From the IMG/VR virus record IMGVR_UViG_3300021139_000115, positions 1 through 27,300 of that record: a stretch of DNA of 27,300 nt. One strand, given 5' to 3'. The DNA comes from a virus. Of this stretch, positions 444-23,107 are shown one piece after another (position 1 is the stretch's first letter; every line of letters starts with the position of its first letter). The notes beneath the pieces were generated by a model that worked only from the letters and a program-made list of their open reading frames with translations, did no database searches and was not told the origin of the DNA. A program made the position numbers and the translations under genes.

Positions 444-1106
444 TTATTTCTTCATTACAGGCAGTTTATTTGTTTGCGCTTGATTTTGTCTAGCTTGTGG
501 GATTGTGGCCTGCCCTGACCCCATTGCATTTTGACTGTCCACCCAAGATGACATTGTGCCTTTATAACCAAGCGCTCTATTTTGTCGTTCAATTGATGAT
601 TCTTCATCAACTCCTTGCTCTGATCCGGGAATGTTGCCTTTGGTAAATGTACTCAACAATATACCAAGACCTATCAGGGCTATTGATGTGGCTAGCATGG
701 GTAGGGCAAAGGTCGTGGCTTGTGCCGATGTTAGTAACGGATCAAGCAATTTTGCGCAAATACTCGAAAACGGGGTGGCCACCGCACCAATGCCGCCCAC
801 CGCACCTGCTGCTACACCTGCGGCTTGTGAAAATGCATTTTCATTTGCGGGAGCCTTGGCCAGTTGTTGTATACGGCCCATTGCTTCTTCTCCAGATTTA
901 GAAGTTTTTAAAATCGCTTGAACCTGTGGTGTCATTGTTTTGGCTTTTTGGTATGCTTGAGAGAAACCCGGCATTGCCTTTGCTTTGTTAAACAACGCCA
1001 TGGCTTGTGTTTTGATGTCGTTGAGCATGCCTTCGGTAAGCACTGGTTTATTGTTTTCTGCAGATTCTATCAGGTCTGCATATTTTCTAAAAAACTTTGG
1101 ATCCAT
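444..1106 (-). CDS. Unknown 220-aa protein with hydrophobic segments
   Basis: I do not recognise a family. The first 90 residues are helical and charged (start MDPKFFRKYADLIESAENN). A Gly/Ala-rich stretch follows at about 95-113, then a clear hydrophobic segment at about 132-153 (ALPMLATSIALIGLGILLS) that could cross a membrane. The last 65 residues are polar and Gln/Asn-rich. PVLTEG at 22-27 looks like the LxE sites cut by T4-type prohead protease, but that is only a resemblance. The start is supported by an SD (AAGGAA) and a CTAAATA late box 24 nt upstream. It is the last gene of this late cluster and meets the oxygenase gene at 1-384 tail to tail. Confidence 0.7.
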   Translation of the reverse strand: MDPKFFRKYADLIESAENNKPVLTEGMLNDIKTQAMALFNKAKAMPGFSQAYQKAKTMTPQVQAILKTSKSGEEAMGRIQQLAKAPANENAFSQAAGVAAGAVGGIGAVATPFSSICAKLLDPLLTSAQATTFALPMLATSIALIGLGILLSTFTKGNIPGSEQGVDEESSIERQNRALGYKGTMSSWVDSQNAMGSGQATIPQARQNQAQTNKLPVMKK

Positions 1107-1129
1107 GGTAATTCCTTAATATCTTTTAT

Positions 1130-2629
1130 TTATTTAGCTTTTATGCCCGCCAAAAAACGGATAAAGTCCAAACTGTCTTCTTGCATGGCAGTTGGTATGT
1201 TGGGATCGGTAACAGGATCATCCAAACTGGCATTGGCTGCACCATATTCATCATTGGGATGTGCAGATTTTGGACTTGTTTGTGGCATCCAATTGGTGTG
1301 CGCATCATCCACATTGTTTTCGCCAAACTGTAGTTCACCAGCCCATTCGGGCATGTTTTGTTGTGCCCAAGACTTGATCAAGCTTCTTACATCTGCATCC
1401 GAACCGCGTCCGGTAGTGGTGTCGGCCAGTTCGCTTATGTTGGACAACAACTCGTCTGCGCCAGGCAAATTATTGACAATAGGTTCTAGATCAGTTTTGG
1501 CATCTATACCATTTATACCAGCAGTCAGTGGTGCTTTGCACAATTCTTGTAGGGCACGTAGTTTATCATCTAATACATCGTTTTCACCATCGTCTTCAAC
1601 AATGGTGTCGGCCCATTCTTCCAATTGGTTGCCCAAACTGTTTTGTTGGCGTCGGTATTCTCTATACACGATTGGCAATGCTTCGTCAAAACGTGCATCA
1701 TATACTTTTTTAACAAAGCGTTCTTTTAGCGCATCAACATCAAACTCGTTTTCTATTGGTGCAGGAGCAATAAAGTCTTCTACAAATTCATCATAGTACT
1801 TTTTTTGACTGAGATGACGTAATGTGTTTTGTAAATGATAATAATGTTTTACCGCTGCCTGCGCCATGTCCGAAGTCTCAGCATCTTCAAACTGTTTGTT
1901 TTTACAACTGCGAACAAAATGTCGCATGGAGGTCATTTCGCGCACCATGTTGTTGATGCATTCGGCTATTTCATCGTAAGGTGTTCCACCGTTGTTCAAA
2001 TGCTCGGCCAGTGCTCGTGCCGCATGTACGTTGTTGTGCTCGCAACGAAAACGCTCACCCAGGGGAGTTTCTAAAAATATACTTTCAATTTTTCTACTTC
2101 GTGCTCCACGCACTTCGTCAACAATGGGTTCAGAGTGTGTGATTTTTAATCTAACGTTGCCGTGTTCGCCAACGCTCTGTCTGGGACGTCCCGGTGTTCC
2201 GTACAGTCTACTTTCAGTAACTCGAACATCATCACTGTCGGCTACATCATCCACACGTGCCTGTTGTTTTACATCCTTGATGTTCAATCCGCTCTTGGCC
2301 AAATCTCTAACATCAAATTTCAATAAACTGCGCTTGGCAAATGATCTCATGTTGCGTAAGAAATCATACCATTCTTGTCGCTGATGGCGATCCATGTCAC
2401 GAGTAATATCCTCGCCATAAGCAATCTTTAAACTGGTTTCATCAATCAAGCTGATTGTGATTTTGCCAAACTTGTTGCCGTTGCTGTCCGAATAAAGAAA
2501 GTTAAAAAATCTTGCTTGTTTGGGATCATCGGTGGGCTTGGCTTTGTCTGTGCCTAGTGTAATGGGGCTGAACCGACTTCGTATCTTGTCAAAGAGGGCT
2601 ACTGTTACGCTTTCAATTTCTGTACTCAT
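1130..2629 (-). CDS. Unknown 499-aa late protein, probably virion-associated
   Basis: I do not recognise a family. The protein begins MSTEIESVTVALFDKIRSRF. The N-terminal third is mixed alpha/beta with a basic patch around residues 95-120. The middle is helical and charged, and the C-terminal 150 residues are acidic and low in complexity. It ends with DSLDFIRFLAGIKAK, which matches a short LAG motif seen in two neighbouring late proteins. An upstream in-frame start at 2737 exists, but I chose 2629. The CTAAATA late box sits only 5 nt before this ATG, and the longer version would run 104 nt into the oxygenase gene. It lies directly after the TerL-C/oxygenase pair and is probably late-expressed; a structural role is an inference from position. 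Confidence 0.75.
   Translation of the reverse strand: MSTEIESVTVALFDKIRSRFSPITLGTDKAKPTDDPKQARFFNFLYSDSNGNKFGKITISLIDETSLKIAYGEDITRDMDRHQRQEWYDFLRNMRSFAKRSLLKFDVRDLAKSGLNIKDVKQQARVDDVADSDDVRVTESRLYGTPGRPRQSVGEHGNVRLKITHSEPIVDEVRGARSRKIESIFLETPLGERFRCEHNNVHAARALAEHLNNGGTPYDEIAECINNMVREMTSMRHFVRSCKNKQFEDAETSDMAQAAVKHYYHLQNTLRHLSQKKYYDEFVEDFIAPAPIENEFDVDALKERFVKKVYDARFDEALPIVYREYRRQQNSLGNQLEEWADTIVEDDGENDVLDDKLRALQELCKAPLTAGINGIDAKTDLEPIVNNLPGADELLSNISELADTTTGRGSDADVRSLIKSWAQQNMPEWAGELQFGENNVDDAHTNWMPQTSPKSAHPNDEYGAANASLDDPVTDPNIPTAMQEDSLDFIRFLAGIKAK
1131..1137 (-). promoter_or_regulatory. Late promoter box CTAAATA (leadered)
   Basis: CTAAATA lies 24 nt before the ATG at 1106, with an SD (AAGGAA) in the leader. 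It overlaps the last codons and the stop of the upstream 499-aa gene. Confidence 0.65.
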
Positions 2630-2633
2630 ATAG

Positions 2634-3191
2634 CTATTTAGTCTTGTAGTTCGCAAAATGTGTGTAACTTGATACACGATAATGCCCGGGCGGTACCGGA
2701 TTCTGCATGCCGTGCCACTGTAACGGTTGACTTCCATCCAAATTCAGTTGGTTCAGCATGAGATATCCTGAGTTTGGCACGAATTTGAACGGATACAACA
2801 CATCATGACTGTTTTTGCTATTGTAGAACACAGTGCCATGCTCGGGACCAACCCCGTGCCAATACAGTTGCATGGCAGCTGCAAGATGCCCATCGGTGTG
2901 TATTGCTACATCAAATCCCGGCTCATCGACCCACCAATTGGTGTCAGGCCATGACAACTCTACCGAAATTTGTTCCCCAATCTGTGCAATATTGTCTATG
3001 AGATACTGATTGGCAACCTTTATCTCGGACGTGTTGTCAAACTCCAATTGCCTTCGGGGCCAATGTTGTTGATGCTGATTTTTCTTCCATGCTATTGCAG
3101 TCCAGTCTAGCGCCTGCAATTGCGACACTATCTCGTATGGAAATACATCTTCAACATGAAACAGTCTATCAGTTATGGCAGTTAGTTTCAA
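2634..3191 (-). CDS. 2OG-Fe(II) oxygenase
   Basis: A 185-aa protein with the double-stranded beta-helix dioxygenase signature: H98-T-D100 (FDVAIHTDGH), a distal His at 160 (LQWHGM) and Arg172 (GHYRVSSYTHF) in the 2-oxoglutarate position. The length is normal for a stand-alone phage 2OG oxygenase. The start is TTG at 3191, overlapping the TerL-C stop as TTGA. The next upstream in-frame codons reach a stop within three codons, so no ATG is available. That overlap suggests translational coupling to TerL-C. The substrate is unknown; in phages such enzymes have been proposed to modify proteins or nucleotides. It has only moderate similarity in layout to the oxygenase at 1-384, so it is not a recent duplicate. 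Confidence 0.8.
   Translation of the reverse strand: MKLTAITDRLFHVEDVFPYEIVSQLQALDWTAIAWKKNQHQQHWPRRQLEFDNTSEIKVANQYLIDNIAQIGEQISVELSWPDTNWWVDEPGFDVAIHTDGHLAAAMQLYWHGVGPEHGTVFYNSKNSHDVLYPFKFVPNSGYLMLNQLNLDGSQPLQWHGMQNPVPPGHYRVSSYTHFANYKTK
2635..2641 (-). promoter_or_regulatory. Late promoter box CTAAATA, 5 nt from ATG (leaderless)
   Basis: CTAAATA then GCTAT then ATG at 2629, with no SD. T4 late promoters start about 5-7 nt after the box, so the transcript should begin at or near the start codon. The box overlaps the stop of the oxygenase gene. Confidence 0.65.
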
Positions 3192-4264: not shown

Positions 4265-4781
4265 GAACGTATCCTTCAGGTTGTTGGCCTAATGTATAAT
4301 ATTTTTCTTCTATGCCGTTATTGAACCAAACTTTACCATTTGCGGCACCAAGTTTACCTTTTCGTCCTTTTGCTATTTTTTCATTGCGAGTCGGATCAGT
4401 GTAAACTTTACTCATTTTTTCTTTATGCTCTTTAGATTTATGCATTTTCATTTTTGATTTGCGTTCTTCCTCAGACCACGTTGTCCCTTTCTTTCTGCCA
4501 CCAACCCCAGGACGTTTGATTCCACGATTAGGGGCCGGCTTTCCGTACATTGGATTTAGTTCGCCCTTCATCCTATTAGAATTTAATTCATACATTAAAT
4601 CTGCATGTGGTGCTAAATTTGCTAGCCCCATCCAAGCAACTTTATCTTGTACTCTTCCATATTGTTCATACAATTTTTTATGTGCTTCTGCATGTTCCGC
4701 TACAGTTAATTCTATAACATTAGAGAGATCGTCTGTGCCACCTGCATGCCTAGGAATAATATGATGTTTATGTGTTTTCAT
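4242..4781 (-). CDS. Free-standing HNH homing endonuclease nested in the split intein
   Basis: A 179-aa protein starting MKTHKHHIIPRHAGGTDDLS. This is the HNH core of phage mobile endonucleases (HHIIPR, then SNVIELT and AEHAEAH). It is followed by NUMOD3-type helix-turn-helix DNA-binding repeats (TWSEEERKSKMKMHKS, EHKEKMS) and a C-terminal WFNNGIEEKYYTLG...PEGYVRGR segment common in such enzymes. I chose 4781 over an upstream ATG at 4856 because HHIIPR normally lies near the N-terminus and because a CTAAATA late box ends 5 nt before it. The gene fills the gap between the two intein halves, with 37 nt after TerL-N and a 23-nt overlap with TerL-C. It presumably spreads the split locus by cutting intein-free terL genes. 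Confidence 0.88.
   Translation of the reverse strand: MKTHKHHIIPRHAGGTDDLSNVIELTVAEHAEAHKKLYEQYGRVQDKVAWMGLANLAPHADLMYELNSNRMKGELNPMYGKPAPNRGIKRPGVGGRKKGTTWSEEERKSKMKMHKSKEHKEKMSKVYTDPTRNEKIAKGRKGKLGAANGKVWFNNGIEEKYYTLGQQPEGYVRGRINKK
4272..4277 (-). promoter_or_regulatory. Shine-Dalgarno of TerL-C inside the HNH gene
   Basis: GAAGGA lies 7 nt before the GTG start at 4264. It is made of HNH codons (Pro-Glu-Gly), so the second terminase gene is initiated from within the endonuclease reading frame. This site decides the GTG start. Confidence 0.75.
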
Positions 4782-4786
4782 ATTAT

Positions 4787-4793
4787 TATTTAG
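4787..4793 (-). promoter_or_regulatory. Late promoter box CTAAATA, 5 nt from HNH ATG (leaderless)
   Basis: CTAAATA, then ATAAT, then ATG at 4781, with no SD. It would drive the HNH gene and, through it, TerL-C. Confidence 0.6.
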
Positions 4794-4818
4794 TGTCGTA
4801 AATGATGAACTTATGAAC

Positions 4819-5736
4819 TTAACGTAATAATTGTTCAAGATCACCAATGGTTGCATTAAAAATTTTACCCGAGTTATCGCGTAGAGTTAAAATTGAATCT
4901 TGCGTAATGCACTCCATCTCACGTCTAAAACGTTCTTCACCCAATTGTGCTCGCATTTGTTGTGCCCAGGCATCATCACGTCCGGGAGTTTCTTGCCATT
5001 TACTGCTAAAGGCCTTGAATCCGTTTTTACCTAATGCGGTGGTGTTGCCGTACTCGTCAAAGCAGTCGTTAGCGGCACGCCATATCTGTGCAAACTGATC
5101 TTCATCACTGTTGGGAGTTGATGTAATAATACATTTACCACCTGTTGACAATGTAGGTGTAATCGAAGTCCAAAATTCTGAGGCAATAGTGGGCCGTACG
5201 AACGCAAACTCGTCACAGTATAAGAGTGATATAGACATACCACGACCGGTGTTTTCTGTTGTTGTTTGACTTACTATGCGACTACCGTTTTCAAAGTCCA
5301 ACGATCCTTTGTTGTAACTGGTAACACCGGCACGTATAAAGTCTGGGCAGTTTTCATAACTGTAGCGTATACGTTGCATAATCTCCTGTGCACCCAAATA
5401 CTTGTGCGCCGCAACAAGAATAGTCGAGTCCGGAACAAACATAGCATACCAAAGCAAATAACCTGCGGCACTGATAGTCTTACCAGTTTGTCTGGGCATT
5501 AACGAGATCGAGAATCTATTGTTATGATACGCATCAATCAAGCGTATTTGATATTCGTAGGGCTTGTACTGTATGCTACCTCTTGTGGGATGCTGAATGT
5601 AAAAGTAATTGGTCATGAAGTATTCAGGACCGGTAACAGGATCGGCACAACGAGCAAACTCAAGAATCTGCTCCTCGGTCATGCTCATTTTCTGATACGG
5701 ATTGCGTATAATTGCGGTTTCTAAATCTTTGCTCAT
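4819..5736 (-). CDS. Terminase large subunit N-terminal ATPase domain fused to intein N-part
   Basis: The 305-aa product carries the packaging ATPase of a gp17-like TerL: Walker A PRQTGKT at 81-87, Walker B LLYCDEF at 171-177, and a coupling motif TSTPNS at 205-210. The extein stops after Glu275 in FRREME, and residues 276-305 form the N-terminal intein fragment before a TAA stop. The protein therefore lacks the nuclease domain, which is encoded at 3188-4264. The ATG at 5736 overlaps the stop of the upstream HNH gene (TAATG). A GTAAATA late box 4 nt upstream lies inside the last codons of that HNH gene, and there is no SD. The encoded enzyme drives DNA into proheads. Confidence 0.93.
   Translation of the reverse strand: MSKDLETAIIRNPYQKMSMTEEQILEFARCADPVTGPEYFMTNYFYIQHPTRGSIQYKPYEYQIRLIDAYHNNRFSISLMPRQTGKTISAAGYLLWYAMFVPDSTILVAAHKYLGAQEIMQRIRYSYENCPDFIRAGVTSYNKGSLDFENGSRIVSQTTTENTGRGMSISLLYCDEFAFVRPTIASEFWTSITPTLSTGGKCIITSTPNSDEDQFAQIWRAANDCFDEYGNTTALGKNGFKAFSSKWQETPGRDDAWAQQMRAQLGEERFRREMECITQDSILTLRDNSGKIFNATIGDLEQLLR
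4822..4911 (-). other. Intein N-terminal fragment (IntN, 30 aa) of TerL
   Basis: It starts with Cys1 directly after extein Glu275 and has a block-A pattern CITQDSILTL, comparable to the usual CxxGD(T/S)xV. The Gly normally at position 4 is replaced: Q4 precedes D5. The fragment ends after 30 residues, far upstream of the usual split point at the endonuclease-domain position. This is the short-N layout of AceL-TerL (25 residues). Confidence 0.88.
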
Positions 5737-6524
5737 TATGTATTTACTCGTCTTGCTCTGTGGGACGCAGACATTTTCTTTTTAGTCTCTTCGCTTATTA
5801 CCTGTTTTGCTCTTGCTTCTCTAATTTTTTGTTTCGTTTCTTCAGACAGAGGACCGCGTCGCCTATTAGCTTCTCCTATTTTTCTTCTATGCTCTTCAGA
5901 ATATTTTCTTCCTTTCATCATTGCCGATTGGTGTTTCTTTTGTTCAATAGTTTTAGGAGTCCCAGACTTACCTCTATTAGATTCTGCTATTTTCTTTTTA
6001 GTCTCTTCAGAATGAGTATAACCAAAGGTTTTACCTTTTCTTGATTCTGATAACTTTCTTTTATGTTCTTCAGATTTTGGCTTTCGAAGTTTTTGCTTGT
6101 GTTCTTCGGATTTTGGTGTTGTATTTTTGCCTTTCAAGGATGCAGATAGTTTTGCCTTTTGTTCTTCGGACATTGTTTTGCCAAGATTTGGGCCTGGACG
6201 TTCCTTATTTGCCAGTGATAAATTTCGTTTAGCTAAGTCGTACATACGTGCCGAAGGACGATATCTGTTAGTTCCCCGCATCATCATGTAGTGGGCATAC
6301 CACATTTTATGTCTGCTAGGGCCTTCGACCATTTTTGTCAATAATAAGTGACAAATATAATGTGCTTTTGGGGTTAGTTTAACTAAGTTTACTGCTTCGT
6401 TAGTGCCACCAAGGGATTTGGGTATAATGTGATGTTTTTCTCTGAAATTTCCATCATTGACTTGTAATGATGCTTTTGCTATAATAGCAAAATACCAATT
6501 GGTATATTTGTTATGTAAATACAT
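5736..6524 (-). CDS. HNH homing endonuclease with eight NUMOD3 repeats
   Basis: A 262-aa protein starting MYLHNKYTNWYFAIIAKA. The HNH core is KHHIIPKSLGGTNEA, VNLVKLTPKAHYICH and LLLTKM at about 34-68. The C-terminal half is about eight tandem NUMOD3-type DNA-binding repeats built on (S)EE(H/T/Q)K+K(L/I)+E(A/S), for example MSEEQKAKLS, SEEHKRKLSES and SEETKKKIAES. The start at 6524 has an SD (AAGGAG) 10 nt upstream and matches the start of the paralogue at 20944, so I reject an in-frame start at 6647. The stop overlaps the TerL-N start by one base. The late box and a 5' hairpin lie upstream. It is probably mobile, inserted directly in front of terL. Confidence 0.9.
   Translation of the reverse strand: MYLHNKYTNWYFAIIAKASLQVNDGNFREKHHIIPKSLGGTNEAVNLVKLTPKAHYICHLLLTKMVEGPSRHKMWYAHYMMMRGTNRYRPSARMYDLAKRNLSLANKERPGPNLGKTMSEEQKAKLSASLKGKNTTPKSEEHKQKLRKPKSEEHKRKLSESRKGKTFGYTHSEETKKKIAESNRGKSGTPKTIEQKKHQSAMMKGRKYSEEHRRKIGEANRRRGPLSEETKQKIREARAKQVISEETKKKMSASHRARRVNT
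5741..5747 (-). promoter_or_regulatory. Late promoter box GTAAATA, 4 nt from TerL-N ATG (leaderless)
   Basis: GTAAATA, CATA, ATG at 5736. The box codes for the final Val-Asn of the upstream HNH protein. No SD is present. Confidence 0.6.
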
Positions 6525-6552
6525 TTTGCTGATGCTCCTTATAAGCGTTAGA

Positions 6553-6583
6553 GTAGTTGGATATTTGCAGTATCGCGAACTAC
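6553..6583 (-). promoter_or_regulatory. 5'-terminal mRNA hairpin of HEG A
   Basis: Outer stem GTAGTT/AACTAC, 5' bulge CGC, inner stem GATA/TATC, 7-nt loop, and a single C bulge on the 3' side. The first stem base is 5 nt after the late box, where transcription should start. The inner stem differs from copy B by compensatory changes. Confidence 0.7.
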
Positions 6584-6588
6584 AATAA

Positions 6589-6596
6589 TATTTATC
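6589..6596 (-). promoter_or_regulatory. Late promoter box GATAAATA of HEG A
   Basis: GATAAATA sits 5 nt upstream of the hairpin and 64 nt upstream of the ATG at 6524. It is one of the better matches to TATAAATA in the window. Confidence 0.6.
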
Positions 6597-6609
6597 AAAA
6601 ATTTTTAAT

Positions 6610-7143: not shown

Positions 7144-7562
7144 TCTGCGTCGTTGGCGCCAGTGCCCGGAGGTAGCTGAGGTCTATACTCCGGGTTCTTC
7201 TTGAGATAGGCTTCAACATAACTTTTTAAATCTCTACCCTGTTGTGGCATTGTGAAATTGATCAAGAACCATAAATCAGTTCCAGGCTGAACTGCATACT
7301 CTTGTTCTAGTTGTCTACGCTCTTTGCTTATATTTCTCTGAGTGCTTCCCACCGGACTTTGAATTCCAGTTTCTTGCGCTTGTGGTACATTGTCTAAATT
7401 ACCACCAACTATGCCAGCACCTCTTGGCTCACCATCTTCAGCAATGGGCATGCCTGCTAGGCGTTTGAGTTCATTGAGTTCTCGCGGGTCTATGTAGGCA
7501 TCGGCCTCGCCAGTTTCTCCTAGCGGAACAAAATTGGCACTGGTTATTCTATATTGCTTCAT
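7140..7562 (-). CDS. Unknown 140-aa late protein
   Basis: I do not recognise a family. It begins MKQYRITSANFVPLGETG and is acidic early. It holds ELNELKRLAGMPI at 28-40, a motif shared with the 670-aa and 499-aa proteins. The centre is Gly/Gln-rich and probably disordered. A more ordered segment follows at about 95-125 (DLWFLINFTMPQQGRDLKSY), then a Pro-rich tail. The start is supported by an ATAAATA box 4 nt upstream without SD. It lies between the SGNH hydrolase gene and the HNH gene, and overlaps the latter's end by 4 nt, tail to tail. Confidence 0.7.
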   Translation of the reverse strand: MKQYRITSANFVPLGETGEADAYIDPRELNELKRLAGMPIAEDGEPRGAGIVGGNLDNVPQAQETGIQSPVGSTQRNISKERRQLEQEYAVQPGTDLWFLINFTMPQQGRDLKSYVEAYLKKNPEYRPQLPPGTGANDAD

Positions 7563-7566
7563 TGTG

Positions 7567-7573
7567 TATTTAT
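7567..7573 (-). promoter_or_regulatory. Late promoter box ATAAATA, 4 nt from ATG (leaderless)
   Basis: ATAAATA, CACA, ATG at 7562, with no SD. It overlaps the end of the SGNH gene. Confidence 0.6.
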
Positions 7574-8757
7574 TTTAATTTTTTAATAAAGTAGTTGGCA
7601 ATGGCACGATGAGTTTTTGGCCCTAGGCTGCTGTAAACATTGTAATAAATCAAATCTAATGGTATTTTTTTATCATCTCGATTGATATAGAGATCTTGAT
7701 ACAGAATTGAAAATTTAGCACATACTGATTCTATTAGAATTTTGTTTTTGTTGAAGTTGTAATTGTTGCTTTTCCAATCAATGTGTTCCCACCAATCGGC
7801 ATAGGGCAAATTGTCATTTCTATGTGTATGCACCCCGCCACTGAATTTTTTACTGACAAATTCGCGTAGACTCATTGAGGGATACAACATGAATACAGCA
7901 ACAATTTGCGGGCTCAATAATTGAATGGTTTGCGTGGCTATACGAGCCAAGCCATCTGTGCTTATGCCCAATACACTGAGATTTAGCACTGTTGCGCCAG
8001 TTTGTTGTTCAACAAGATAAGGCCAAGTCATATCTTGTTCAATGCCTATACCAAATGTATCGCTGTCGCCCAAACAAATTATAAGTTTTTTGTTTGCCAG
8101 TGTTTCAGCAGTGTAGTCTTGACTGGCACGATAGCCAAGATTGTTGTAACGATACACAGTGTCGTCGCCAGGATATCTAAATTCTTCGGCATCAATTCTG
8201 GCCGGTATTGATGATGCTGCGGGTATTTTCTTATTGAAATACAAATTGCGTAAATGGTCTTTACCTAGATAGCTTTCTATGTCGTCAACATCAACTCCCA
8301 AGTCAAAGTATTCCAATTTTGGTGCAAAAGTTTTTTCTTGCACTATGTCGGCAACTGTTTGTGTTGTGGCATAGGGTTTTAGTGTGACCCTGGCAATTTG
8401 TTTGTGTTTGATTGGCAAGTTGTGCCATTCTCCTTGAGTGGCAAAATCAGTTTTTTCAATACATTGTTGAACTGGTATAAGTTGTGTATAGTCAGGCGAA
8501 GTGGGTGCAAAAAACAATATAACAATGTCGGGGTCATGAACACTGACCGAAATGTTAAATTCAAGATCAACATTGCTTCTCACATCATCCACCTTGACCA
8601 TGTCGTCGGCAATTTGACTATGCCAGGTTCGCGTCATGAGATTGAACTCGGTAGTGGTAGATGAATTGTTGCCAAATATAGTTATCGTGCCGATGGCTGA
8701 CTTTATTATTCCTGCATTAGAAATCGCACAGAAAGGAAATAGGTATCTAGCACTCAT
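7570..8757 (-). CDS. SGNH/GDSL-type hydrolase-like protein
   Basis: The 395-aa protein has two parts. Residues 1-185 are an uncharacterised, beta-rich N-terminal region. From about 195 the sequence runs RYNNLGYRAS...LIICLGDSDTFGIG, with the nucleophile block GDS at 230-232, a second block around G264 (NLSVLGIS) and a candidate catalytic His383 (GPKTHRAIA). The usual block III Asn is not evident (FMLYPSMS at about 289), so activity is uncertain. SGNH enzymes hydrolyse esters such as O-acetyl groups on sugars; on a virion this could mean host glycan deacetylation, but that is inference. A TTAAATA box lies 6 nt before the start. The upstream 670-aa gene is closed off by a terminator. Confidence 0.72.
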   Translation of the reverse strand: MSARYLFPFCAISNAGIIKSAIGTITIFGNNSSTTTEFNLMTRTWHSQIADDMVKVDDVRSNVDLEFNISVSVHDPDIVILFFAPTSPDYTQLIPVQQCIEKTDFATQGEWHNLPIKHKQIARVTLKPYATTQTVADIVQEKTFAPKLEYFDLGVDVDDIESYLGKDHLRNLYFNKKIPAASSIPARIDAEEFRYPGDDTVYRYNNLGYRASQDYTAETLANKKLIICLGDSDTFGIGIEQDMTWPYLVEQQTGATVLNLSVLGISTDGLARIATQTIQLLSPQIVAVFMLYPSMSLREFVSKKFSGGVHTHRNDNLPYADWWEHIDWKSNNYNFNKNKILIESVCAKFSILYQDLYINRDDKKIPLDLIYYNVYSSLGPKTHRAIANYFIKKLK

Positions 8758-8763
8758 GTAGAT

Positions 8764-8770
8764 TATTTAA
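8764..8770 (-). promoter_or_regulatory. Late promoter box TTAAATA, 6 nt from ATG (leaderless)
   Basis: TTAAATA, ATCTAC, ATG at 8757, with no SD. It is placed just after the terminator of the preceding gene. Confidence 0.5.
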
Positions 8771-10834: not shown

Positions 10835-11470
10835 TTATTGTCCTCTTTTGCCTTGCAGTTTATTTTTTGTTGTACCAATTGGTGCAGTGTCGCCTTGTGG
10901 TACTCGTTTACTGTTTGTTGTTTCGCCTTTGGTAGTGCCTTTTTCAAACACTCGATCGCTATTAGAGTCACTACCAGCAGTTTCAAATTTGCGTGTATGT
11001 TTTTCTAATTCAGCAATCAAACTTGTAATACGACCAGGACCAACTAACTCTTGTGCGCCTTTAACGTCTTTTAATTCTGGATCGTCAAGCAATGCCGTTT
11101 TTTCTACATTGTTGACGCCACGCATTTCAGCCTCTTCAGTGAATTCAGCCTCTTGCAAATTGCGCACATTTAACCAATTGGGATTGATTTTGGCACGCTC
11201 TTTAATTATCTGTGCTATAGCAACATTGGTAGTGGGATAGGCCACTTGAACATCAAACATCCAGCAGTCACAAGGACCGCCCCAATTTGGAAACTCTCTG
11301 TGCTCTTGTATTGGCAAATGTTTTACTGCACTAATGCTTTCCAATTGATAAGTTTCAAGAGCATTTTTAATTGCTTCCATCACTTCCTTGGTGGGCTCAG
11401 TACCGGCTAGTTTAATGCGAAATTCGTATGGCTTGGTAAGCTCAAATACGTAAGTCTGAAATGGTTTCAT
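10835..11470 (-). CDS. Unknown 211-aa late protein
   Basis: I do not recognise a family with certainty. Residues 1-105 look like a compact alpha/beta domain (YVFELTKPYEFRIKLAGT, then a helix EVMEAIKNALETYQL, then WMFDVQVAYPTTNVAIAQII). The middle is charged. The last 60 residues are polar and basic, probably disordered (KGTTKGETTNSKRVPQG). It lies between the probable TerS and the 670-aa protein and shares a transcript with the latter. The start has an SD (AGGAC) and a CTAAATA box 20 nt upstream. A head-assembly role would fit the position but is not shown. Confidence 0.7.
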   Translation of the reverse strand: MKPFQTYVFELTKPYEFRIKLAGTEPTKEVMEAIKNALETYQLESISAVKHLPIQEHREFPNWGGPCDCWMFDVQVAYPTTNVAIAQIIKERAKINPNWLNVRNLQEAEFTEEAEMRGVNNVEKTALLDDPELKDVKGAQELVGPGRITSLIAELEKHTRKFETAGSDSNSDRVFEKGTTKGETTNSKRVPQGDTAPIGTTKNKLQGKRGQ

Positions 11471-11490
11471 CGTAATAGTCCTATATTGTA

Positions 11491-11497
11491 TATTTAG
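11491..11497 (-). promoter_or_regulatory. Late promoter box CTAAATA (leadered)
   Basis: CTAAATA lies 20 nt upstream of the ATG at 11470, with an SD AGGAC in the leader. Confidence 0.65.
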
Positions 11498-11507
11498 TCT
11501 TGATTAA

Positions 11508-12011
11508 TTATTTGCTCTGCTTGCTCAGGATCTGTTTCAACAGTTCATTACGATCAAGTACTATGCCTTTACCATCAATTGGTTCTTCAACAGCGTCGGA
11601 ATCACCGCTTTTGGCATCTTTTCGAATTTGATGATCCAAACGTGCCTTGGCCAACTGTAGATTAATCATGCGCAATTTCTTGTCCATTTTGGCAGTTTTG
11701 GCAGTGATGGCGTGTCCCAACATGGTGCCGGCAGTCTGCATGATTACCCCAGCAAAACGTGGATCAATGTTCATGCCCAAATCCATTAAGTCTATTGCTT
11801 TGTCTCTAGCCAAATCTGCTAGTTCATCAAGCTCTTGGTCAGCAGTGTCTAGGTCACGCACAGTGGGCAGAGCAATATCAATTTTGCTGATGGCACTGTC
11901 TACTTCGGCAATGGTGGCTAGATTTTCATCAATGAATTGTTGCGCTTCTTCGGTGGTGGGATCGTCGGGGTTGGATGCTAGATTCAGCAACTCTTCAAGT
12001 TTTTTAGTCAT
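11508..12011 (-). CDS. Probable terminase small subunit (gp16-like)
   Basis: A 167-aa, almost all-helical protein. The central segment DLMDLGMNIDPRFAGVIMQT followed by GTMLGHAITAKTAKMDKKLR and MINLQLAKARLD resembles the DNA-packaging small terminase family of T4-like aquatic phages; T4 gp16 is 164 aa. TerS recognises phage DNA and regulates the TerL ATPase. Here it is not next to terL but about 6 kb away, beside the gp4 nuclease gene. The N-terminus is acidic and helical. A late box lies 4 nt before the start, with the spacer AGGT acting at best as a very weak SD. The family call comes from recall of the motif and is not certain. Confidence 0.6.
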   Translation of the reverse strand: MTKKLEELLNLASNPDDPTTEEAQQFIDENLATIAEVDSAISKIDIALPTVRDLDTADQELDELADLARDKAIDLMDLGMNIDPRFAGVIMQTAGTMLGHAITAKTAKMDKKLRMINLQLAKARLDHQIRKDAKSGDSDAVEEPIDGKGIVLDRNELLKQILSKQSK

Positions 12012-12015
12012 ACCT

Positions 12016-12022
12016 TATTTAT
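12016..12022 (-). promoter_or_regulatory. Late promoter box ATAAATA, 4 nt from ATG (near-leaderless)
   Basis: ATAAATA, AGGT, ATG at 12011. The box overlaps the stop of the gp4 gene. Confidence 0.55.
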
Positions 12023-12887: not shown

Positions 12888-14359
12888 TATACTCCTGGTA
12901 GACTTAGATCAATAGAAGAAGGTATGCTAAAGAAAGGACTTGCAGTACTGTTGGGATTAAGGAAACTGGTAAAGCTACTCCAACTTGAAGTCAATGCAGT
13001 TCCAATACCGGTACTAGATACCAAGCTACTGATACCAGGTACCAGATAAGTTGAGATTGCAGTATTGATTGCTGCTCCAGCAGCCTTGGTGGCATACGAG
13101 ATGGCAAGGTTTTCGGCAGTTTGGATTGCATTTTTGGGATTGGCAATTGCTGTAGCCACCAAAGTAACAATGCTGGGGCTGACGCCAGCTCCTTGTGCAA
13201 TACCTTTGATTACACCATTTACAATTTGTGTTTGTGCGTTGTTTACAATACTGCTCAATGCCAATTGTGCATTTTGACTTGGAGGTAAACCGTACTTGGC
13301 GCCAAGTTGGAATGCTGCTGATGACTGTGCAAAACTTGTAAATCCTGGAAGACTCAAGCCGCCACCGTTGACACTGGCACTGGCGTTTACTGTGGTAGCA
13401 GTGGCCATGCCGCCTGCTGGTCCAGTTGCATATATACTGAGATCTGCTTGGGCAGCAGCAGTTGCCTGTATGGCTCCAGCGGGATTTATACCTACTCCAC
13501 CAGTGGCCAAATCAGTAATGGTACTGGGCACATTGGTGGCACCGCCTTGTCCGTTGTCAATCAAGTTTACTCCGGCATAGGGGCTAATAACACTTGGCGA
13601 TGTATCATAATTCAGTGTTGTGTATCCGCCAACTGTGTTCGGTGTTGTGTATCCGGTCAAGTACTTTACTGTTTCAAATTGCAAAGTCATGTCGTGTTCA
13701 AGTAAACCGCCTTCACCATTCACATGCTCGCCGTGTTTGAAACTGGTGATTATGGGATTGACTAGTTCGTATTCACTAAAATACTTTTGATACAAACTAT
13801 AGATACGTATTGCTTGTATGTATTGATACTCTTGGAAATTGTCACTGGAAGCGCCTGCGGCTCCGGCATTGGCTCTAGGTGTGTATCCCCAATTGAATGT
13901 GGCACGTGTGTTGTATTTGGTGGGTATTTGATATGTGGCATCTGCATAATCAGGATCACGATAATAGTAACTGTAGTAGTCGTACCAAAAATTTCTAATT
14001 AGGTCAGACTGGTCATCGTGAAATTTTATAGTAACAGGATCATACTTGATGTTGTTCTGCACATAATTTTTACGGTTATAGGCATTGTGTTCTTTGACGC
14101 CTATAGTGAATTTTGGTAAGTTGACGCTTTTAACTATCATGCCCATTTGTTGGGCGCTGAGAGTACTCACATTAGATACCGCAGGATTAAGATCAAATTC
14201 TACATAGAATAAAAAATTATATTTTGGACTCAGTTTGTAGTCGTTGTCGATAAAGATCTTTTTGGCGTGTGTGTAGTCGCGCAGAATCACAGTGCCTTCA
14301 GTGTCGTTATCTAAAATGTTTACGGTGCGACTGGGTCGCAGATATCTATTAATACTCAT
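12887..14359 (-). CDS. Tail-tube-fold structural protein (tube/baseplate type), 490 aa
   Basis: Residues 40-255 have the look of the gp19/gp54 tail-tube fold: LSPKYNFLFYVEFDLNP, VKSVNLPKFTIGVKEHNAYN, and IKYDPVTIKFHDDQSD with a following Tyr-rich stretch (FWYDYYSYYYRD). The segment HDMTLQFETVKYLTGY closes the domain. Residues 260-490 are Ala/Gly/Ser-rich with long hydrophobic helices and no family I recognise. It sits directly after the tail tube gene, so a tube-cap or tube-initiator role in the baseplate is plausible but inferred. Tube proteins of this family are usually under 220 residues, so the C-terminal half is an addition. The CTAAATA box lies 5 nt before the start. Confidence 0.68.
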   Translation of the reverse strand: MSINRYLRPSRTVNILDNDTEGTVILRDYTHAKKIFIDNDYKLSPKYNFLFYVEFDLNPAVSNVSTLSAQQMGMIVKSVNLPKFTIGVKEHNAYNRKNYVQNNIKYDPVTIKFHDDQSDLIRNFWYDYYSYYYRDPDYADATYQIPTKYNTRATFNWGYTPRANAGAAGASSDNFQEYQYIQAIRIYSLYQKYFSEYELVNPIITSFKHGEHVNGEGGLLEHDMTLQFETVKYLTGYTTPNTVGGYTTLNYDTSPSVISPYAGVNLIDNGQGGATNVPSTITDLATGGVGINPAGAIQATAAAQADLSIYATGPAGGMATATTVNASASVNGGGLSLPGFTSFAQSSAAFQLGAKYGLPPSQNAQLALSSIVNNAQTQIVNGVIKGIAQGAGVSPSIVTLVATAIANPKNAIQTAENLAISYATKAAGAAINTAISTYLVPGISSLVSSTGIGTALTSSWSSFTSFLNPNSTASPFFSIPSSIDLSLPGV

Positions 14360-14364
14360 AGTAA

Positions 14365-14371
14365 TATTTAG
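14365..14371 (-). promoter_or_regulatory. Late promoter box CTAAATA, 5 nt from ATG (leaderless)
   Basis: CTAAATA, TTACT, ATG at 14359, with no SD. It follows the terminator of the tube gene by a few bases, so the two transcription units are separate. Confidence 0.68.
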
Positions 14372-14376
14372 TCAAT

Positions 14377-14400
14377 AAAAAACCCGGTCAAAACCGGGTT
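14377..14400 (-). terminator. Rho-independent terminator after tail tube gene
   Basis: A GC-rich stem AACCCGGT/ACCGGGTT with a 4-nt loop, followed on the minus strand by a T-run. It lies 17 nt after the stop of the tail tube gene. Confidence 0.9.
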
Positions 14401-14417: not shown

Positions 14418-15035
14418 TTAACCTGTTATAGTTAGACCTGGAGTCTGTGTAGTTACTGTTGTACCAACACCGCCGCCAAATGTTTGAATTGCATTGTCAA
14501 ACTTGATTGTTAGTGCAATTTGAACTGGGTCACTGCTGTTGTACGCCATGTCACCATAGTCAACTTGGCTCAAGAAGCAACCATCCAATTCCCAACTTTC
14601 AAGAATGCTAGGAGTTGTGTTTCCATTACCACCATCCAGTATGTCATAAACCACAGAGAATTTATAATCAATGCCGCTTGGAGCACTGGCTTGCTCTAGG
14701 AAGTCAAATTGTTTCTGAATTTGCTCACCAACCAATTGACTGACTTGACCTGTGGTGTCGTCACGTACATTGATTGTGGTGTCTTGCCACTCAGGTTTGC
14801 CTTGTAAATGAACTTTACTGTTATAAACGTCAATAGTAATTGGGTTAAAATTTACGTTGGGACGCTTGATATCAACCACTTGTTTGGTTAATTCAGTAGT
14901 TGGACTGGTTACGCCAAAGTTGATGAATGTCGCACGGAAGCGATACTTCAACTTGGGCATCAACAAACCCTGCGAGCTTGCACTCTGGTTTGTTGATAGC
15001 GGTACTGTAAACTTACTCAACGATGCGATTGCCAT
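14418..15035 (-). CDS. 19: Tail tube protein gp19
   Basis: A 205-aa protein matching T4 gp19-type tube proteins. It has LLMPKLKYRFRATFINFGV near the N-terminus, TKQVVDIKRPNVNFNPITID, then DPVQIALTIKFDNAIQT near the end. T4 gp19 is 163 aa; the extra length lies mostly in the Ser-rich start and the Gly/Thr-rich end. It polymerises into the inner tube of the contractile tail. The start is well defined by an SD (AGGAGA) 7 nt upstream and by a GATAAATA late box 18 nt upstream. A strong terminator follows, giving a single-gene transcript, as expected for a high-copy protein. The sheath gene lies immediately upstream. Confidence 0.9.
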   Translation of the reverse strand: MAIASLSKFTVPLSTNQSASSQGLLMPKLKYRFRATFINFGVTSPTTELTKQVVDIKRPNVNFNPITIDVYNSKVHLQGKPEWQDTTINVRDDTTGQVSQLVGEQIQKQFDFLEQASAPSGIDYKFSVVYDILDGGNGNTTPSILESWELDGCFLSQVDYGDMAYNSSDPVQIALTIKFDNAIQTFGGGVGTTVTTQTPGLTITG

Positions 15036-15053
15036 ATTATTCTCCTATATTCT

Positions 15054-15061
15054 TATTTATC
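15054..15061 (-). promoter_or_regulatory. Late promoter box GATAAATA (leadered) of tail tube gene
   Basis: GATAAATA lies 18 nt before the ATG at 15035, with SD AGGAGA in the leader. Confidence 0.7.
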
Positions 15062-18000: not shown

Positions 18001-18401
18001 CATAATGTACCATCAGCTTCGGTACCAATTGGGCGAACACTTGTGCCCACCAGCTGGTTTAAATCAATATCGGCACGAATAGCATACAATTGATTGGTGA
18101 TGCCAAGCGCACTGTAAGATGTCATCAAACCATACTCGTTAAGTTCGCTACCGTTTAACGAAGTTCCGTTGGTGCTGGTTTGAAAATTAGGAGTTCCCAT
18201 TGCAGTTACTAGTTCGCGCTGACTAGTGAACGACTGCAATTTTCCTGCATAGGCTTTTGATGTACCTACTGCTGCTGCTCCATTATATGTTTTATCTTGT
18301 GCAGTTGCGAGTAAAACTAGTGGTACTGAACCTACGTTACTGTTTACATACTGACTTTGATCATTTATACTGATCGATACTCCTGGGGATACTAATGCCA
18401 T
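15069..18401 (-). CDS. 18: Tail sheath protein gp18, greatly enlarged (1110 aa)
   Basis: The ends are those of a contractile tail sheath. It starts MALVSPGVSISINDQSQYV. The C-terminal core (about 700-1110) has DPRLYPRGTLLFNTRRSGFN, SFIHNGINQGLRDLL, GVGLVIWGQETRSGD, RLENYLRTILATIANGFLFE and a final VEYIYIPIALYNPGT. T4 gp18 is 659 aa. The excess is residues ~125-700, beta-rich and Gly/Ser/Thr-rich. Four similar segments are visible there, at about 127-160, 369-398, 591-616 and 655-683, each with a G-x2-W strand and most ending in a Tyr/Trp-rich strand (for example YRYTGTAWVAID). They should face outwards. The start has an SD (AAAGGA) and a CTAAATA box 30 nt upstream. Confidence 0.93.
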   Translation of the reverse strand: MALVSPGVSISINDQSQYVNSNVGSVPLVLLATAQDKTYNGAAAVGTSKAYAGKLQSFTSQRELVTAMGTPNFQTSTNGTSLNGSELNEYGLMTSYSALGITNQLYAIRADIDLNQLVGTSVRPIGTEADGTLWLDLANTEFGVYTLNATTSSFTSIDSNLLLITSANQVTQDTVSATFAYTVPAPISSVGNPGQYAMVFVNADGTTPQSVRLYYKATTSSINGSTQGGFNNQWIQVGPSSPNWQYSVPAVAGNVSNPSNLSIGSNVYINGSNVTTTGTTVTQLASDINNAAITGVKASAATGVLQLFVTSAAASGAGTLTITEGTGTPLTKCGISAGTYYCPTVFYGSYAQAPSGGWFSTDSQPRPSGSIWWKTTATGGGFNPVLKQYSASQDSWNPLSVPMYYNTITTINAFDYTGGGLNIPIGTWYAGYIVGDSSYNQLRFNEATSTGPVSATGGPATTFVTGNSILLNATAQSSSSFNQYTITVGADTSAAGFVAAILAKNIPFVTATYNATSNTITITHTAGGQIQIQNASGNTGTQPLTSAGFVSGQGTGFIIGSATGYVYISNFTPETQNIVYSKTQPQGNPATGTYWYYSNPADIDIMINYNGTWHGYQNVTQDIRGYNLSQTSPGGVIITPNTAPTSQSDGTALVKGDLWLDSGNLINFPSLYRYTGTAWVAIDNTDHVSNNGIIFADARWDSTGTTDPISGTLPSITTLLTSNYVDQDVPDPRLYPRGTLLFNTRRSGFNVKKFVANYFNSTSFPSPGTTPGTAGTLPSIANAWVSASGNNEQGVMYGGSAAQRALIVDAMESAISSNTDILEQIYQFNLITAPNYPELIPDMITLNSNRGDTAFVIGDTPMTLTPTSTVLTAWSNNTNGTGLSTASPYLAVYYPAGLTNDLAGNQIVMPASHAALYTYLYNDQVSHPWFAPAGTHRGLVSTFSDIGYLDANSGSFIHNGINQGLRDLLSSININPITNLPGVGLVIWGQETRSGDTSSRNRVNVVRLENYLRTILATIANGFLFEPNDTITRKTIATQIESALNNLVAQRGIYDYLVICDTSNNTPSTIANNQLYVDVAIEPVKDVEYIYIPIALYNPGTIAALGKTST

Positions 18402-18431
18402 GGTAAAAATCCTTTTTAAGACTGTTATGAA

Positions 18432-18438
18432 TATTTAG
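18432..18438 (-). promoter_or_regulatory. Late promoter box CTAAATA (leadered) of tail sheath gene
   Basis: CTAAATA lies 30 nt before the ATG at 18401, with an SD AAAGGA in the leader. It faces away from the promoter of the + strand gene at 18502. Confidence 0.7.
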
Positions 18439-18488: not shown

Positions 18489-18496
18489 TATAAATA
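18489..18496 (+). promoter_or_regulatory. Perfect T4-type late promoter TATAAATA, 5 nt from ATG (leaderless)
   Basis: TATAAATA, TCAGT, ATG at 18502, with no SD. This is the exact T4 consensus and the best match in the window. Confidence 0.75.
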
Positions 18497-18501
18497 TCAG
18501 T

Positions 18502-18852
18502 ATGAAAAAACGTGAGTTGTGCAAGGTTTGTAATACAAACGCTAGAGCCATTAACTATGTCAAGGAAGGGGTATATCACTACCGTTCTCGATGCTCGGCG
18601 TGTATAAGAAAAGGACACAAAATTAAATTGGTGCCGGCATGGGCCAAGTCAGGATATGCGAAAAAGCCGCAATGTGACAAGTGCGGCTTCAAGTTCAAGT
18701 TCCCGGTGGAACAGAGTGCGGTGTTTTATGTAGACGGCAATTTGAAAAACAACAACTGGGTCAACCTCAAGACACTGTGTCTCAATTGTGTGCAAGAGGT
18801 GTATAAGAGCCGAGTACATTGGCGACCTGCGGAGATTGTACCAGACTTTTGA
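18502..18852 (+). CDS. Four-CxxC zinc protein, degenerate HNH-like
   Basis: A 116-aa protein with four CxxC pairs: C7/C10, C31/C34, C58/C61 and C93/C96, enough for two zinc sites. The second half resembles a phage HNH fold (VFYVDGNLKNNNWVNLKTLC then LNC). The position that is usually the first catalytic His before V/I-D-G-N is Tyr76, so cleavage activity is doubtful; a DNA-binding role is possible. The start at 18502 is fixed by the perfect late promoter 5 nt upstream, and I reject an in-frame ATG at 18475. The 3' end overlaps the opposite-strand dNMP kinase gene by 71 nt. Confidence 0.78.
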   Translation: MKKRELCKVCNTNARAINYVKEGVYHYRSRCSACIRKGHKIKLVPAWAKSGYAKKPQCDKCGFKFKFPVEQSAVFYVDGNLKNNNWVNLKTLCLNCVQEVYKSRVHWRPAEIVPDF

Positions 18853-19495: not shown

Positions 19496-19873
19496 TTATT
19501 TGCGTCGCAATGTCACCGGTTCACGTGCCTTTACCGGACTTACACTGTGAACTTCTGCAGGCTCACTGCTGTCATTAGGTGTTAGTCTGTGCGATTTGAC
19601 TCCAAATGCTTTTTCTGCTTGATCCAGTATTTGGTGTTCTCCTTCACTGTAGGCCACGGTGACTAGAGCTTGTCCGGTGGGGCCTTCTTTTTCAGGTACA
19701 TGTTCATATTTGCCATCTGGAGCGCCAGCACCACCCAAGAAGTGAGCCGAAAAACGCCAGGGTGCATAAGGACTTGAGTTATCCAATTTGGGATGATTTT
19801 TCATTCCTGGAGTAGCAGCAATATGGCTATCAGGCATTTGACTTTCTTCTGTGATGATTTCTGTAATTTTCAT
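19496..19873 (-). CDS. Unknown 125-aa late protein
   Basis: I do not recognise a family. It starts MKITEIITEESQMPDSHIAA, then PYAPWRFSAHFLGGAG, EKEGPTGQALVTVAYSEGEH and a short helix DQAEKAFG, with a polar, basic end. The compact middle (40-100) looks folded; the ends look flexible. I chose the ATG at 19873 because a GATAAATA late box lies 5 nt upstream; the in-frame ATG at 19897 lies inside the gp13 gene. It follows gp13 and precedes the dNMP kinase, from which a hairpin separates it. A neck or head-completion role would fit its neighbours but is not shown. Confidence 0.75.
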   Translation of the reverse strand: MKITEIITEESQMPDSHIAATPGMKNHPKLDNSSPYAPWRFSAHFLGGAGAPDGKYEHVPEKEGPTGQALVTVAYSEGEHQILDQAEKAFGVKSHRLTPNDSSEPAEVHSVSPVKAREPVTLRRK

Positions 19874-19878
19874 AAGTG

Positions 19879-19886
19879 TATTTATC
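19879..19886 (-). promoter_or_regulatory. Late promoter box GATAAATA, 5 nt from ATG (leaderless)
   Basis: GATAAATA, CACTT, ATG at 19873, with no SD. It lies inside the 3' end of the gp13 gene. Confidence 0.65.
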
Positions 19887-20838
19887 CCATTATCCAAGTC
19901 AAAGGCTGGCTTCCATCAACATACAGTTTCAAGTCCTCTTCGAGCTTTTCCATTTCGGCCACTGCTTCTGTTTTTAATGCATCACCATTGAGATTGGCTC
20001 CACCTTGCGGTCCGGCAATTTGACTAAATTTACTTCTAGCTTCGCCTAGGATTCTTTTGCAGAAACTGTACGCATAGTCTTGAACCCAGGGGAACGATTG
20101 CGGATCATTCAAGATCATTGAATCGGGTTTGGTATTAAAAATCCAAAGCAGAACACTTTCGTTTTGCACTGGATCGGGGTTGGCGCCTTGGAACGGCATT
20201 TTACGTACCAAGGTCAATTTCTTTGTGACCGGATTGAATGTATAATTCATGTAGCCGCCAAACATGGTCATGGCCAGCTTTTGATAGTCCACAAACAATT
20301 CGTAGTTGGTAAGTCCGCCCACACGTCCTGCCACCAACATGTAAGTGTTCAAGTATCCCGATGCAAACGGCTCAAATTGGCTTGCTGTAGTTCCTGTCAC
20401 ACTTCCAATACCGCGTCTAAAAACTGCTCGGACGTTTTGTATTTCTCGAGGAAGAATATATTCTTGTGTTTCGGGCAGCAGGCTTAAAAATGCATAGCTT
20501 TCTTCATAGGCATTTTGTGCCTTTTGACGATACTTGATTAGGGCTTGATTAATGCCCATTTCATAATGCTCTTTTTCAAGTTCTACATCAACAATGCCAT
20601 CGGCCAAGCGCATGCGAATGTAGTCAATGATTGCGGCACGCATGGAATCATTGGTGTTACCATAGGCCCAATTGGGATCTTGCACTCCGGGAAAAGTTGT
20701 TGTGCTTGATCCATCAAAAGCGATGTGAGCGCCCGACTGTGAGCCGGTGTTGGCATTGAACAGGCTCTTTGCGTTGATGTTGTTTTGTGCGTCGAACCCT
20801 GGTTCGACAGTGACATTGCTGGTAAATGGTGTAGCCAT
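19882..20838 (-). CDS. 13: Neck protein gp13
   Basis: A 318-aa protein matching the gp13 neck family. After about 65 extended residues it has DYIRMRLADGIVDVELEKEH, YEMGINQALIKYRQKAQNAY, ESYAFLSLLPETQEYILP, then VRAVFRRGIGSV, and near the end SFPWVQDYAYSFCKRILGEA and IAGPQGGANLNGDALK. T4 gp13 is 309 aa. In T4, gp13 and gp14 form the neck that joins the filled head to the tail and carries the whisker collar. The start has an AATAAATA-type late box 18 nt upstream and a GGGA SD. Its promoter is back to back with that of the homing endonuclease at 20944. Probable partners gp14 and gp15 lie at 23108-25860 on the other strand. Confidence 0.88.
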   Translation of the reverse strand: MATPFTSNVTVEPGFDAQNNINAKSLFNANTGSQSGAHIAFDGSSTTTFPGVQDPNWAYGNTNDSMRAAIIDYIRMRLADGIVDVELEKEHYEMGINQALIKYRQKAQNAYEESYAFLSLLPETQEYILPREIQNVRAVFRRGIGSVTGTTASQFEPFASGYLNTYMLVAGRVGGLTNYELFVDYQKLAMTMFGGYMNYTFNPVTKKLTLVRKMPFQGANPDPVQNESVLLWIFNTKPDSMILNDPQSFPWVQDYAYSFCKRILGEARSKFSQIAGPQGGANLNGDALKTEAVAEMEKLEEDLKLYVDGSQPLTWIMG

Positions 20839-20856
20839 GAAAAATCCCGTATAGTG

Positions 20857-20863
20857 TATTTAT
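20857..20863 (-). promoter_or_regulatory. Late promoter box ATAAATA (leadered) of gp13
   Basis: ATAAATA lies 18 nt before the ATG at 20838, with a short SD (CGGGA) between them. It is only about 11 nt from the divergent box of the homing endonuclease. Confidence 0.65.
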
Positions 20864-20874
20864 TAAAAACATTA

Positions 20875-20881
20875 CTAAATA
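20875..20881 (+). promoter_or_regulatory. Late promoter box CTAAATA of HEG B
   Basis: CTAAATA sits 5 nt before the conserved hairpin and 62 nt before the ATG at 20944. Confidence 0.65.
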
Positions 20882-20886
20882 ATAGT

Positions 20887-20916
20887 GTAGTTCGCGGAAT
20901 TGGCGTTCCCAACTAC
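20887..20916 (+). promoter_or_regulatory. 5'-terminal mRNA hairpin of HEG B
   Basis: Outer stem GTAGTT/AACTAC, 5' bulge CGC, inner stem GGAA/TTCC, 6-nt loop, and a single C bulge on the 3' side. The same architecture occurs in copy A with GATA/TATC, so the inner stem is kept by paired changes. Confidence 0.7.
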
Positions 20917-20943
20917 TCTAACGCTTACAAGGAGCACCAGCAA

Positions 20944-22782: not shown

Positions 22783-23088
22783 CTACATCTTTAGCAAAGT
22801 GCCAAATGTCAGGTGTTGCTCTAATACAACAAGAGCTTCATCCAATTGGCGAGCCAATTCTTCATATCGAACAGTATATCGATTTCGGCGTCTGCATTCC
22901 ACAAATTCCCCATCCAATTTTGCCCAATATGCAACACAATTTTGAAACATCAAATGTAATTTGGCATCGCCCAATCGTATTACGATGGGACGAGCATCTG
23001 CTATTCTGTTGTAAAGAGCGGGGCTATGTGACTGCATAACTGTAATTATACTAGATAAATCATTCCCAGTCAAATTGGGTAAATACAC
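22783..23088 (-). CDS. Small unknown protein, up to 101 aa (start uncertain)
   Basis: This frame fills the gap between the 390-aa gene and the gp14-like gene. The sequence reads like a real protein: SPALYNRIADARPIVIRLGD, then KLHLMFQNCVAYWAKLDGEF and a terminal helix EELARQLDEALVVLEQHL. I do not recognise a family. The GTG at 23088 gives the longest form; an ATG at 23037 gives 84 aa. Neither has an SD. A TATAAT-like sequence just upstream of the ATG at 23037 could be a -10 element. The longer form overlaps the late promoter of the divergent gp14-like gene on the other strand. Confidence 0.55.
   Translation of the reverse strand: MYLPNLTGNDLSSIITVMQSHSPALYNRIADARPIVIRLGDAKLHLMFQNCVAYWAKLDGEFVECRRRNRYTVRYEELARQLDEALVVLEQHLTFGTLLKM
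23079..23085 (+). promoter_or_regulatory. Late promoter box GTAAATA (leadered) of gp14-gp15-Nudix operon
   Basis: GTAAATA lies 22 nt before the GTG at 23108, with SD AGGA in the leader. Confidence 0.6.
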
Positions 23089-23107
23089 AATAATCTAGGA
23101 AAACACA

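Follow-up and report, generated by a model that had tools for sequence, protein, structure and literature searches.

In the viral DNA analysed here (27.3 kb in all, hereafter the window) and in its close relatives, the late-type box TAAATA stands at one of two distances from the start codon that it precedes: either 4 to 6 nt (near class) or, after a gap, 14 nt and more (far class). The class to which a gene belongs is conserved and stays fixed over deep divergence. We consider it very likely that the near-class late genes are served by gp55-type promoters that start at, or within one base of, the ATG and so yield leaderless mRNAs, and that the far-class genes are led by a Shine-Dalgarno (SD) sequence.

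The window comes from an uncultivated jumbo myovirus that falls within the T4 superclade and is only distantly related to PA5oct and Atu_ph07. Its genes include those for tail sheath, tail tube, a second tube-like protein, a head-closure protein, a dNMP kinase, a terminase in two pieces, and several HNH homing endonucleases. Over the aligned parts, the sheath is ca. 38-43% identical to those of the jumbo phages PA5oct, Phosso and Atu_ph07. Close relatives were found in IMG/VR at 78 further loci, including one 354 kb contig that was covered whole (IMGVR_UViG_3300022602_000024, locus L111), and the set used to compare spacings amounts to about 1.2 Mb of relatives.

A sequence-only reading of the window had listed nine ATGs with a TAAATA box 4-6 nt upstream. 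All nine boxes are present at these ATGs, eight on the minus strand and one, at 18502, on the plus strand (Table 1). The same reading held that so consistent a spacing is unlikely to be an accident, and this is borne out: 1000 dinucleotide-preserving shuffles of the window gave on average 1.47 and at most 6 occurrences of TAAATA-N4-6-ATG, against the 9 observed. The bare word TAAATA occurs 22 times, with a shuffle mean of 21.9, so that the peculiarity of the window lies in the position of the boxes relative to ATG and not in their number. Six other late-type starts in the window (1106, 11470, 15035, 18401, 20838 and 23108) are leadered, at 18-30 nt from the box.

Table 1. Late-type boxes and the starts they precede in the window, with the distribution of each start over its orthologs (near: box-to-ATG spacer of N4-6).
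Start	Coordinates	Strand	Box	Spacer or SD	Orthologs	Gene and context
ATG 2629	2629..2640	-	TAAATA 2640-2635	N5, gctat	n=24: 17 near, 5 at N7-8	virion structural protein, phrog_13484; stop of upstream gene ends 4 nt before ATG, inside spacer
ATG 4781	4781..4792	-	TAAATA 4792-4787	N5, ataat	n=3: 1 near (weak comparative support)	HNH homing endonuclease, phrog_655, between terminase halves
ATG 5736	5736..5746	-	TAAATA 5746-5741	N4, cata	variable: 4 near, 4 at N7-8, 13 far, 4 without box	N-terminal part of large terminase
ATG 7562	7562..7572	-	TAAATA 7572-7567	N4, caca	near 4/23	box TAA is stop codon of upstream gene
ATG 8757	8757..8769	-	TAAATA 8769-8764	N6, atctac	n=3: 2 near, 1 at N7-8	hairpin and T-run just upstream
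ATG 12011	12011..12021	-	TAAATA 12021-12016	N4, aggt	near 28/28	phrog_16202; box TAA is upstream stop codon
ATG 14359	14359..14370	-	TAAATA 14370-14365	N5, ttact	near 29/37	second tail-tube-like protein
	14381..14400	-				intrinsic terminator AACCCGGTTTTGACCGGGTT + TTTTATT, stopping ca. 10 nt short of the 14359 box
ATG 18502	18491..18504	+	TAAATA 18491-18496	N5, tcagt	near 41/44	divergent from sheath gene
ATG 19873	19873..19884	-	TAAATA 19884-19879	N5, cactt	n=20: 8 near, 3 at N7-8	box TAA is upstream stop codon
ATG 1106	1106..1136	-	TAAATAAATA 1136-1127	SD aagga	far, single ortholog with sequence	leadered late promoter (predicted)
ATG 11470	11470..11496	-	11496-11491	SD tagga	far 25/25	leadered late promoter (predicted)
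ATG 15035	15035..15059	-	15059-15054	SD taggagaa	far 44/44	tail tube; leadered late promoter (predicted)
ATG 18401	18401..18437	-	18437-18432	SD-like aaaagga	far 43/45	tail sheath; leadered late promoter (predicted)
ATG 20838	20838..20862	-	20862-20857		far 33/33	leadered late promoter (predicted)
GTG 23108	23080..23110	+	23080-23085	SD tagga	far 23/23	leadered late promoter (predicted)

A flat distribution of box-to-ATG distances in relatives had been named as the outcome that speaks against leaderless late mRNAs; the tally is sharply bimodal. In a first pass from TAAATA to an in-frame ATG, we counted 36, 108 and 14 cases at 4, 5 and 6 nt, none at 9-13 nt, and a broad class at 14 nt and beyond, and permuted hexamers gave no peak at 4-6 nt in the relatives. 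In a larger set from which duplicates were removed, the counts at 4, 5 and 6 nt were 39, 118 and 20 (177 near sites in all), followed by 18 at 7 nt, 5 at 8 nt, a total of 3 at 9-13 nt, and about 297 at 14-35 nt. With one vote for each of the 126 orthogroups, 34.3 fell at 4-6 nt and 1.0 at 9-13 nt (binomial tail about 6e-10 and 1e-7). Genome-wide counts at N5, at N11 and for a reversed control were 17, 2 and 5 in one 354 kb relative, 27, 3 and 4 in another, and 11, 3 and 1 in the cultured Xanthomonas phage XacN1. Could an A+T-rich box simply meet common ATGs, with kinship between loci inflating the count? Single sites such as 4781 have nearly no comparative support, and in T4 TAAATA-N5-ATG matches occur four times, all of them gene-internal. 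For the class as a whole, the nine sites where about 1.5 are expected, the N5 excess over both controls in two relatives and in XacN1, and the survival of the signal under orthogroup weighting leave chance with a negligible probability, and we reject it, individual weak sites excepted. Composition effects, wrong start calls and over-counted relatives likewise did not hold as accounts of the class.

T4-type late promoters consist of a TATAAATA-like box of 8 bp, no -35 element, and an A+T-rich downstream segment. The boxes described here share with them the TAAATA core, a preference for A before the box, and an A/T-rich spacer. No conserved -35 element was seen, the profile to 25 nt upstream of the box having no TTGACA-like columns, and a sigma-70 scan of 8.7-20.9 kb returned chance numbers (27 found, 25.9 expected). 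A gp55-family late sigma factor (phrog_234) is encoded by all five large relatives searched (E 1e-23 to 1e-25); none is seen in the 27 kb window. Searches of the relatives for a gp45-type clamp with phrog_223 and PF02916 gave 0 matches, with no control hit in a phage close to these to show that a clamp would be found. RNA polymerase usually prefers to start with a pyrimidine at -1 and a purine at +1; a T stands just before the ATG at 84% of near sites, 38% of far sites and 37% of box-less ORFs (66% near versus 44% far after orthogroup weighting). The dinucleotide TA at box+5/+6 of leadered promoters (41%) was considered as evidence on the start position as well; since it is weak after orthogroup weighting (24% versus 15% expected), it is not used here as strong support.

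The T4 late box spans positions -13 to -6 (PMC2988020), so with a spacer of N5 the A of ATG falls on +1. If the T4 geometry holds, sites with N4 would have +1 at the T of their ATG, barring a one-base shift of initiation. Spacers of 9-13 nt correspond to leaders of 4-8 nt, in which a leader is present yet an SD does not fit, and from a spacer of 17 nt upwards the leader is at least 12 nt and the SD fits. The emptied range of 9-13 nt is exactly that of the leaders that are too short. By analogy with T4, then, each box would act as the -10-like element of a gp55-dependent late promoter from which transcription would begin 5-7 nt past the box. In the near class this start point would coincide with the A of the start codon or fall within one base of it, and the predicted leaderless mRNA would be translated by recognition of its 5'-terminal AUG and not by SD pairing. 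The second late class, which in the window includes the sheath and the tube, would retain a leader of at least 12 nt with an SD.

The remark that the near sites have no real SD applies to the class at large. Among 153 non-redundant near sites and 263 far sites, the mean anti-SD duplex energy is -0.75 kcal/mol for the near class and -4.74 for the far class, with a dG of -4 or below at 5% and 78% of the sites and an SD motif at 1.3% and 71%, respectively, although the absence in the near class is partly forced, since the box occupies the position of the SD. In the far class, SD-like motifs are most frequent 7-10 nt past the box, immediately after the predicted transcription start. Leaderless initiation needs a 5'-terminal AUG. 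At N4-6, ORFs of at least 100 aa begin with ATG in 173 cases, GTG in 1, TTG in 3 and CTG in none (ATT with 8 and ATC with 5 give the chance level). This preference for ATG fits leaderless initiation, for whose dependence on the 5'-terminal AUG a passage of PMC5312081 cites Brock et al. 2008. The preference also bears on the question whether the true starts lie elsewhere, at an in-frame codon upstream or a leadered ATG downstream, with the near ATG incidental. An in-frame ATG, GTG or TTG does exist upstream at 56/153 near sites, and the 18502 gene of the window could be extended to TTG 18475. The other 97 sites have no upstream alternative before a stop, protein alignments of the 12011, 18502 and 7562 families have their conserved N-terminus at the near ATG, and a ratio of 173 ATG to 4 GTG and TTG is not that of incidental codons; we regard misplaced starts as very improbable.

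More serious is the proposal that the near genes are read from longer mRNAs made at promoters further upstream, and that TAAATA next to the ATG is an A/U-rich translation element or an upstream stop. The TAA of the box doubles as the stop codon of the upstream gene at 31/153 near sites, where its conservation could partly serve the stop, 96/153 near genes closely follow a gene on the same strand, and the first 40 nt of near genes are weakly structured. But the same box lies 14-35 nt from the leadered genes and is thus not tied to translation, and an upstream promoter gives no reason for the gap at 9-13 nt. In the 14359 orthogroup, moreover, an intrinsic terminator lies directly upstream of the box in 32/32 near-class members (such terminators precede 36/153 near and 8/263 far sites, these 32 included, and are found in 4/4 of the 8757 group). 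Upstream of the 18502 gene, the window has no gene on the same strand. For these families an upstream promoter is therefore a poor explanation, and we judge it improbable in general. An argument from apparent tRNA genes directly before near boxes at some loci (L006, L020 and L046) was dropped because ARAGORN calls no tRNA there. The sequences concerned resemble a tRNA 3' half (GGTTCAAAGCCTGCCCGACTGCTCCA; L006 ca. 21090-21130, L020 ca. 11545-11585, L046 ca. 21810-21850) and are perhaps tRNA remnants or insertion scars.

The division into two classes is made gene by gene. The 12011, 18502, 14359 and 2629 families are strongly conserved as near class; the remaining five of the nine window sites (7562, 8757, 19873, 5736 and 4781) are near in part of their orthologs only. 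Genes without a box keep to their state as well, the dNMP kinase being box-less in 38/38 orthologs. Sheath and tube, normally high-copy proteins, are both leadered, which suggests a possible role in dosage. A broader proposal, namely that the two fixed translation classes provide gene-by-gene control of dosage or timing, possibly with the host machinery tilted towards 5'-AUG initiation, seems to us rather unlikely. In leaderless late expression of the phiYS40 type, the phage shifts the balance of initiation factors (IF2 up, IF3 down). None of the five relatives encodes an IF3 C-terminal domain, and one of the five, the 354 kb L111 (G001:232992-233144), encodes ribosomal protein bS21; this protein could influence which start sites are chosen, and it is a lead only. 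Within the far class, the clade of the window shows a sub-peak at a spacing of 31-32 nt, with the SD ca. 18 nt past the box, that includes the sheath gene of the 354 kb relative.

The near class is unevenly distributed over the phages. On a sheath tree it makes up ca. 41% of box-preceded starts in the 68-tip clade of the window and 20-30% among a broader sample of uncultivated relatives, ca. 0.04 in the Atu_ph07/Phosso group, and 0 in PA5oct, CBB, RaK2 and Vibrio phage 2.275.O. Genome-wide, the N5 spacing is not enriched over controls in PA5oct, CBB and RaK2, and the enrichment in SCTP-2 (24 N5 matches versus 19 in the control) is not convincing. T4 itself differs, as the sequence-only reading had supposed: its gene tables hold no annotated gene with TAAATA-N4-6-ATG. 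XacN1 has 15 sites at N4-6 (a few counted twice owing to the long terminal repeats), 0 at 9-13 and about 58 at 14-34, and its depositors placed CDS starts exactly at the near ATGs 126974, 128288, 158321, 239774 and 261711. At 115513 and 163334 of the XacN1 record (AP018399) a near-class ATG precedes the annotated start by 9 and 72 nt, respectively; if the promoters are real, these two starts may be mis-annotated.

Several known systems resemble this one in part. With the T4 late promoters (gp55/gp33/gp45, TATAAATA) it has in common the box, the late virion genes, a gp55 homolog and an A+T-rich spacer; T4 late genes, however, have an SD leader, whereas ca. 40% of the box-preceded starts in the clade of the window are TAAATA-N4-6-ATG. 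For the Thermus phage phiYS40, leaderless middle and late mRNAs are described in a review (PMC3594737). The likeness lies in the leaderless middle/late phage mRNAs, and the host differs. In Deinococcus-Thermus, leaderless mRNAs that lack an SD arise from a -10-type element situated a few bp ahead of the ORF (PMC12340547); those are cellular promoters of that phylum, whereas here a T4-type late box occurs in phages with a gp55 homolog. The ATAAATA motif stands also before structural genes of the related jumbo phages CBB and GAP32, which have a gp55-like factor; the relevant passages of PMC5259590 propose no leaderless reading, and in the region of CBB that we examined 0/15 box-preceded ATGs have the box at 4-6 nt. 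For T4-type late promoters, a full-text search, with most subscription papers outside its scope, returned no description of leaderless transcripts. Leaderless phage mRNAs as such are known already (phiYS40), and what appears to be new, and is well supported by the comparison of sequences, is a predicted leaderless class from T4-type late promoters.

If this is true, T4-type late transcription can yield leaderless mRNAs as a standard class in widespread uncultivated giant phages. Such phages would offer a natural experiment in which SD-led and leaderless genes, fixed per gene, are expressed in one phage from one type of promoter. The model specifies the positions at which 5' ends and protein starts are to be expected, and XacN1 is a cultured phage with the pattern. 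Gene callers that rely on the SD may misplace near-class starts.

Some further observations concern the HNH endonuclease genes and their surroundings. In the split large terminase (3188-5736, minus strand), the N-part ends with an intein-like N-half (..MECITQDSILTLRDNSGK..) and the C-part opens with an intein-like C-half (..FYANGILCSNCEF..). Between the two parts lies the ORF of an HNH homing endonuclease, and the whole resembles a fractured gene, in which a split intein is accompanied by a freestanding endonuclease. At ca. 6500-6600 and 20860-20970 the same element, TAAATA..GTAGTTCGCG..CCAACT..GCGTTAGAGTA, with boxes pointing in both directions, precedes two HNH endonuclease genes and is possibly a mobile regulatory or homing cassette. 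The sequence GTAGTTCGC is found also near position 2645 of the window.
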